Assembly (NCBI GenBank): GCA_020852715.1
Contig: JADZAE010000047.1
Location: 62,001-126,000 of the forward strand
Direction of reading: 5' to 3'
From: Deltaproteobacteria bacterium
Lineage (GTDB): Bacteria; Bdellovibrionota_C; UBA2361; SZUA-149; JADZAE01
Length of the DNA stretch: 64,000 bases
Position numbers and translations under genes: made by a program. Positions 33,596-55,691 of this stretch are shown in pieces (within the stretch, counting starts at the first letter, position 1; each line of letters begins with the position of its first letter). Under the pieces are notes generated by a model. That model searched no databases. It was not told the DNA's origin and worked only from the letters and a program-made list of their open reading frames with translations.

Positions 33596-33758
33596 GCGCT
33601 AGCGCTATCGGCGCAAGAAAATGCCGCGAACGCCGTGGCGTGCGTGGGCAATGCCCACTGCGGTGTGCGGCTAAGCCGCCAACTGCCGCGTGCATGTGGG
33701 GCGCCGGCGACCCAGTTGTTCGCTAACGTTCACAACATGTGTGTGCGCTCCACGAGCG
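33596..33758. repeat. GC-rich palindrome cluster
   Basis: Much richer in G and C than the rest of the window and packed with short palindromes: GCGCTAGCGC (33596-33605), GTGGGCAATGCCCAC (33644-33658), GCGGCTAAGCCGC (33667-33679) and CGCTCCACGAGCG (33746-33758). The arms are mostly 5-7 bp with loops of 0-3 bases. One frame is open across part of it but has no likeness to a protein and odd composition. No second copy was found in this window. It directly precedes the long structured repeat at 33773. Confidence 0.6.
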
Positions 33759-33772
33759 TTTGCAAAATTATC

Positions 33773-33988
33773 TATACCGTACGCAAGAAATAAGTTGAAC
33801 GGTATATTACTAAGTAATTAAGTTTTGCGTACGGTATAAAGAAAAGCAAGGATGGTTTTCGCGGAAGCGAAACCCCGATTCGCTTCCGTAAATGCCCATA
33901 AATAAGCCATGGACGGCCTATTTATGGGCAAAATGAAACTAAGCCCCATCGGGGCGGATTTTGCGTAGCAAAATCATGGGGGCAAAGA
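33773..33988 (+). repeat. Dispersed structured repeat, long form (copy A)
   Basis: Head: 14-bp perfect inverted repeat TATACCGTACGCAA (33773-33786) and its complement (33825-33838) around an interior with GAACGGT. Tail: a chain of hairpins, CGGAAGCGA/TCGCTTCCG (33862-33888), GCCCATAAATA/TATTTATGGGC (33894-33929) and GATTTTGC-GTA-GCAAAATC (33957-33975), the last enclosed by GCCCCAT/ATGGGGGC. The tail matches the reverse complement of 55463-55612 over nearly its whole length. No protein frame is shared. Function unknown: it could be a small non-autonomous mobile element or a structured RNA. Confidence 0.85.
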
Positions 33989-34007
33989 ATAGGCCTTCAC
34001 ATATTTA

Positions 34008-34030
34008 GCCGTTTCCGATAAGGAAACGGC
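34008..34030. repeat. Short hairpin outside the repeat copy
   Basis: GCCGTTTCC and GGAAACGGC form a 9-bp stem with a 5-base loop (GATAA), 20 bases after the end of repeat copy A. No T run follows. Could be an extra unit of the hairpin chain not present in copy C. Confidence 0.5.
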
Positions 34031-34282
34031 AGTGACTAATCAAATATTTTTATAATAGCGTTATTTAATTAAATTTTCTACCGAGTGAAGGTTTATCCAT
34101 TTGCTTAGGGCTAGGATAGAAAGCTGAAGACTTTTCAGTTCAAAAGTTAAATTTCTTTTTGCTAATGGTATAACACTGTGGCGGCAACGCCGAGCATGTT
34201 AAAAATATTATCACGAGGTTATGTTTTTACGATTTATGTATAAGACTTAGAAAAACTGCCCGCCAAGAAAGCGAAGCTCAAC
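34031..34282. other. Gene-free stretch downstream of the UvrD-like helicase
   Basis: AT-rich, no coding sequence, tRNA or further repeat copy recognised. It includes TGGCGGCAACGCCGAG, a weak GGCG/CGCC stem near 34180, and otherwise nothing I can name. Confidence 0.4.
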
Positions 34283-42345: not shown

Positions 42346-42413
42346 TATACCGCACACAAAAATAGTATTACCCAGTAAAGCACCGTTCAACTTACTTTTT
42401 TGTGTAAGGTATA
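42346..42413 (-). repeat. Dispersed repeat head only (copy B)
   Basis: TATACCGCACACAAAAA at 42346-42362 and TTTTTGTGTAAGGTATA at 42397-42413 form a 17-bp inverted repeat with two mismatches. The interior (CCCAGTAAAGCACCGTTCA) is almost identical to that of copy C on the plus strand. The hairpin tail of the long form is missing on its expected side, so this is a solo head. It lies between lepB and hemW. Confidence 0.8.
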
Positions 42414-55362: not shown

Positions 55363-55443
55363 TAAGGATTTTACATTAATCAAATACCCGCTGCTTTCAG
55401 AATGGGCATACCATTTGCAAAAAGTAATTTAATTTTTGAGCTG

Positions 55444-55461
55444 AAAAGCCTTCGGCTTTTT
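55444..55461 (+). terminator. Short rho-independent terminator
   Basis: AAAAGCC (55444-55450) and GGCTTTT (55454-55460) form a 7-bp stem with loop TTC, followed by more T residues (TTTTTATCTTT). It ends the preceding plus-strand gene and lies at the edge of repeat copy C. Confidence 0.75.
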
Positions 55462-55462
55462 A

Positions 55463-55691
55463 TCTTTGCCCCAATGATTTTGCTTCGCAAAATCCGCCTC
55501 AATGGAGCTTAATTTTATTTCGCCCATAAATAAGCCATCCATGGCTTATTTATGGGCATTTACGGAAGCGAATCGGGGTTTCGCTTCCGAAGAAACCATC
55601 CTTGTTTTCCTTTATACCGTACACAAAAATAGGATTGCCCAGTAAAGCACCGTTCAGGGTCTTTGTTTCAAACCTTTTTGTGTACGGTATA
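55463..55691 (-). repeat. Dispersed structured repeat, long form (copy C), overlapping the uvrA 3' end
   Basis: Read on the minus strand: head inverted repeat TATACCGTACACAAAAA (55691-55675) and its exact complement (55629-55613), interior with GAACGGTGCTTTACTGGGC, then tail hairpins CGGAAGCGA/TCGCTTCCG, a perfect GCCCATAAATAAGCC stem, and GATTTTGCGAAGCAAAATC. The tail is nearly identical to 33839-33988. The head's left arm encodes the last residues of UvrA (YTVHKK) and the uvrA TGA lies in the interior. Confidence 0.87.

Follow-up and report, generated by a model that had tools for sequence, protein, structure and literature searches.

The window, a stretch of 64,000 nucleotides of bacterial DNA, carries at 33773-33988 a block which returns in inverted orientation as the reverse complement of 55463-55691, the two being 90% alike over 166 nt. 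Their folding z values are -7.7 and -8.9, and none of 200 dinucleotide shuffles folded as well. The preliminary description had reported this pair of blocks, and both are indeed present and alike, but the element reaches further than the block first described. Terminus pattern searches and a module map give copy A a span of 33773-34172 (400 bp), of which the reported block is only a part. Copies A and C are both bounded by TATACC...GGTAT(A/G), and the element is laid out as a palindromic arm at each end, TATACC...GGTATA, with three hairpins in between. The features in the window are the following.

33773..34172, plus strand: copy A, complete element of 400 bp, termini by pattern search, flanked by a TA duplication, intergenic with convergent neighbour genes
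33773..33838, plus strand: left arm H1 of copy A, palindrome TATACCGTACGCAA...TTGCGTACGGTATA
33841..33860, plus strand: hairpin H2 of copy A, loop contains AAGGATGG, shows covariation
33861..33889, plus strand: hairpin H3 of copy A, loop AAACCCCGAT, kept across families of the order
33894..33929, plus strand: hairpin H4 of copy A, GCCCATAAATAAGCC.../...TATTTATGGGC, shows covariation
33940..34095, plus strand: H5+H6 block of copy A, an IS66-like second-family piece at the start of the right arm, missing from compact copies
34094..34172, plus strand: right arm H7 of copy A, palindrome TATCCATTTGC...GCTAATGGTATA with an inner hairpin, ends GGTATA
55407..55691, minus strand: copy C, 285 bp, with left arm (55613-55691), H2-H4 (55522-55612), an H5 piece and a shortened right arm
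42346..42413, minus strand: copy B, a solitary left arm of 68 bp

A UvrA-like ORF (1784 aa) has its 3' end inside copy C, at window 55668-55691, where its last seven codons and stop are element-derived.

The chain of hairpins had been described as one tail of the family. The hairpins are present, but those past 33939 form a separate repeat family and are missing in many copies. The H5+H6 block matches this second abundant family, F2, which has the ends GTATCCSTTCACG...CGTGAAGGCTTAC; allowing one mismatch at most, there are 262 terminal matches, compared with 56 for the control. The T-G wobble noted earlier in the "third stem" and the long stem said to be kept are both seen in the sequence, and that third stem falls within the H5+H6 block. 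F2 also occurs as stand-alone copies (L089-L092, L101), with direct repeats of 8-9 bp at L101 (GTTAAAAC) and L090 (GAAGTGACC). Matching ends, GTAACCCTTCACG...CGTGAAGGGTTGC, enclose a degraded IS66 transposase on contig C61, and F2 therefore looks like an IS66-derived repeat family. IS66 was also considered as the mobiliser of the hairpin element and was rejected, as IS66-type ends fit F2 and not the ends of the hairpin element.

As a DNA query, the block matched 58 places in the window's own genome. A covariance model, R1, built on H2-H4 with the arms left out, found 37 strong copies there, for a recognisable total of about 37, and the copies range from 34 to 414 bp. Compact copies, L011, L012, L021, L023 and L028 among them, are about 250 bp long and have the order H1-H2-H3-H4-H7 without H5+H6, and the module map shows further copies lacking H5 or H6 singly, or H3/H4. 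The two arms share in their terminal repeats only about the first six bases and scattered positions. Solitary left arms of 66-84 bp (copy B, L095, L096, L097, L100 and L102) represent separate insertions. At L112 and L113, apparent IS3-type transposase genes are inserted in such single arms. ORFs contain none of the 44 copies, and the orientation of the copies relative to the upstream gene is mixed. The neighbour genes of 34 copies are convergent in 13 cases, codirectional in 13 and divergent in 8; the convergent share, against about 20% of window gene pairs, is a modest excess, unweighted for gap length.

Mobility can be read from paralogous sites. A third repeat family surrounds copy A, at window positions of about 33600-33772 and 34173-34245. 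In the empty paralogues L012/L077 (contig C27) and L058 (C34), the flanks of copy A are joined by a single TA, and the more diverged paralogue L042 (C62) agrees with a single TA at this site; paralogue L091 carries TG at the insertion point. As TA stands on both sides of copy A and only once in the uninterrupted paralogues, the insertion duplicated TA. Likewise, a 34-bp mini-copy in an F2 repeat (L106) has a single TA in the empty version. About 20 complete copies show no direct repeat longer than TA. The site of L018 is ambiguous, with CT in the empty copies and no clean fit to a TA duplication. The third repeat family is GC-richer, hosts both copy A and L018, and is seen at L012, L018, L042, L058 and L091. 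A miniature mobile element had been among the options first offered for the block, and its mobility is now shown by the empty paralogous sites and the duplication of TA on insertion.

The structure of the element is maintained within the genome. RNAalifold on the gapped alignment recovered only part of it, and the named structure of 45 pairs was counted in its place. Across the 35 copies of alignment A1, 92.1% of cells are paired, and 117 cells show changes on both sides, compared with 47.5+-7.6 in shuffles (0 of 500 as high) and 5-16 in slid controls. Compensatory examples include G-C/C-G in H2, A-U/U-A twice in H4 and A-U/G-C in H3. Stems have a lower rate of private changes, 2.8%, than unpaired columns, 4.3%. 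Among the private changes are 63 one-sided ones and five on both sides, where about 0.3 would be expected by chance on our estimate from mutation rates; all five are Watson-Crick, and four are transversions on both sides. The high-frequency wobble pairs on the plus strand are four G.T against one A.C. The rare one-sided changes give G.T and A.C in similar number (21 vs 15; pooled 33 vs 24, p=0.29), and so the data give no pointer to a plus-strand RNA.

Beyond this genome, the window block used as a DNA query had no match among 37 other genomes from the order and class. The structure model reached three relative genomes that DNA similarity missed. With R1, a scan of 14 further genomes of the order gave a single copy in G001 and three copies in G005. 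A second model, R2, was made from the R1 set plus three copies from relatives, with opposite-strand matches of the palindromic H4 left out of the rebuilt alignment behind it, and was applied to 46 genomes from the class. By this model G001 holds 13 copies, G005 six and G008 one, these genomes representing three other families of the same order, and there are no copies in the 42 remaining class genomes, the window's own genome aside. In 585 kb from 80 unrelated loci there was no convincing match (best 14.4 bits for R1; none for R2). The element is therefore not a genome-specific repeat, as had been suggested, but an order-wide family. The earlier view that two lone copies without covariation would leave a structured family unsupported is clearly answered by 37 copies and by covariation both in the genome and in the order.

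The five-hairpin architecture is kept across four families of one order, with its stem sequences turned over. The models contain no arms, yet the examined copies in relatives carry palindromes of the TAGAGC type (or a near variant) at the arm positions, unless a contig end or truncation intervenes; these arms are TA-ended TAGAGC...GCTCTA palindromes, and the right arm mostly has an inner GC-rich hairpin. Between the consensuses of G000, G001 and G005 the stems are 25-58% identical, whereas the H3 loop AACnCCGAT is identical at 8 of 9 positions in each pairwise comparison; the single G008 copy is without the H3 loop. Alignment A5 joins 30 copies from four genomes. It was fitted to the structure and therefore leans towards it, and with that bearing on its values it has 94.6% of cells paired, a covariation score of 0.718 vs 0.225, and 264 cells with both-sided changes against 90.5+-8.1 in shuffles (0 of 500). 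The early reading of the block as selected for folding thus holds as far as maintenance of structure is concerned, since the paired positions covary both in this genome and between four families of the order.

The most probable interpretation, to which we give a probability of roughly 0.7, is a non-autonomous, non-coding, MITE-like element that inserts at TA, consists of palindromic arms and three hairpins, and is moved in trans. Like MITEs, the copies are short, non-coding and dispersed between genes, with target-site duplication at copy A and the mini-copy. Terminal inverted repeats exist as the short TATACC...GGTATA, in arms which are palindromic in their entirety. With about six shared bases, however, they are short for a MITE. 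The TA dinucleotide is the insertion target, duplicated on insertion, and the arm ends would be recognised in trans by a transposase specific for TA, of the Tc1/mariner or IS630 kind. No Tc1/mariner-type DDE_3 (IS630-like) transposase occurs in the assembly, a MAG about 92% complete, and no autonomous element with the element's ends was seen in it; at this completeness, the partner may be missing from the assembly or lost. Many accepted MITEs are likewise without a known autonomous partner. The only pair of ends at an IS-like distance around a gene, on contig C13, consists of two inverted solitary arms around an ABC transporter gene (L109 11602-13563), and was set aside as a coincidental arrangement and not an autonomous parent, given the nature of the enclosed gene.

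One competing explanation holds that the hairpins have no function, and that one arm is repeatedly recopied from its partner by intrastrand template switching as the DNA replicates, mimicking compensation in any long palindrome. The five private both-sided changes, far above their chance expectation and mostly double transversions, speak for such a process, as do the private double changes in the relatives' left arms L223 and L229 and the lack of excess G.U intermediates. It leaves unexplained, however, the conservation across families of hairpin order, hairpin number and the unpaired H3 loop, as well as the lower private mutation rate in stems. The constant H3 loop argues against palindrome repair as the sole explanation, and we regard this account as rather doubtful.

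Also unlikely is a mainly RNA-level role, in which the element would be a structured RNA (an independent ncRNA or a 3'-UTR module released by processing) that happens to spread as a repeat and is selected for RNA folding and loop recognition. Strong covariation, a constant H3 loop among changing stems, the modest excess of convergent genes and the predominance of G.T among the high-frequency wobbles all speak for an RNA. Against it stand the rare one-sided changes, which show no G.U preference, the promoter-like sites in copies A and C, which are not above chance, the mixed orientation to the upstream gene, and the lack of an Rfam family match. Promoter and terminator scans gave nothing consistent, including no consistent terminator in copies A and C. 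The private double transversions and the missing G.U bias argue against RNA as the sole explanation. A repeat of the REP/BIME type, with movement by RAYT (Y1) transposases, is very improbable. The genome does hold eight Y1 genes (L031-L038) for RAYT-like transposases of about 320 aa, but no hairpin-family module lies at any of these eight loci, the GTAG/CGTC tag was not seen, and TA is duplicated on insertion, unlike in HUH transposition, which makes no TA duplication.

For the MITE-like element, the kept hairpins call for a further step. Source copies that are active would keep their hairpins, the folded strand being needed as single-stranded DNA in transposition or as RNA, and the copies would decay after insertion; alternatively, template switching may maintain perfect palindromes. 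A point against this reading is that a repeat which is purely parasitic should not keep its loops from family to family. A class of bacterial mobile element recognised via a folded single strand, with five ordered hairpins, a constant loop and free stems kept across families of an order, and either moved by a TA-specific enzyme that reads hairpins or working via an RNA made from the element, is a tentative idea to which we attach little weight.

Among known systems, no named family had been recognised in the block at the outset, and the whole window indeed has no Rfam match; the relatives' loci gave only tRNAs and a sub-threshold ncS035 (23.7 vs 79 bits). DNA similarity searches in plasmids and phages, and pattern searches in viral contigs and one in genome_contigs, found nothing. 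The literature searched gave no description of this five-hairpin family, which proves no absence. PMC2229807 reviews the TA-ended MITEs (Correia/NEMIS, RUP, ERIC) together with CIR, and PMC3049150 does so for BOX and SPRITE. By description and not by sequence, CIR of Caulobacter and Brucella would be the closest in outline, with two palindromic arms and a linker, TA termini and a structure common to different genera (PMC2229807); arms, linker and TA are all found here. CIR differs in being about 110 bp long with GANTC in the terminal loop, whereas here there are three extra linker hairpins in 215-400 bp, and GATTC stands at H3 in this genome but is absent from H3 of the G001 and G005 copies. 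Correia/NEMIS, RUP and ERIC are likewise non-coding, with TA termini and target duplication, and are thought to be mobilised in trans (PMC2229807), but they form a single long hairpin from end to end, while each end here pairs within its own arm. SPRITE is hairpin-rich and enriched between convergent genes (PMC3049150), but it is one terminator-like hairpin, and copies A and C have no consistent terminator. BOX of Streptococcus pneumoniae resembles the element as an intergenic, structured, modular chain whose inner modules can be missing or repeated (PMC3049150). BOX is reported from streptococci only, whereas this architecture spans families with replaced stems. We know of no sequence relation between BOX and the hairpin element.

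As a rule, short mobile repeats do not extend beyond one species or genus, and they are generally assumed to decay freely. In this element the shape has outlived the sequence across families, its stems being replaced pair by pair with one loop almost constant. A structure model is thus a search tool for a class of repeats that sequence similarity misses, having found three genomes where DNA similarity found none of 37. The kept shape points either to a step that recognises the strand in its folded form or to strong palindrome repair, two possibilities that the present dataset can separate.
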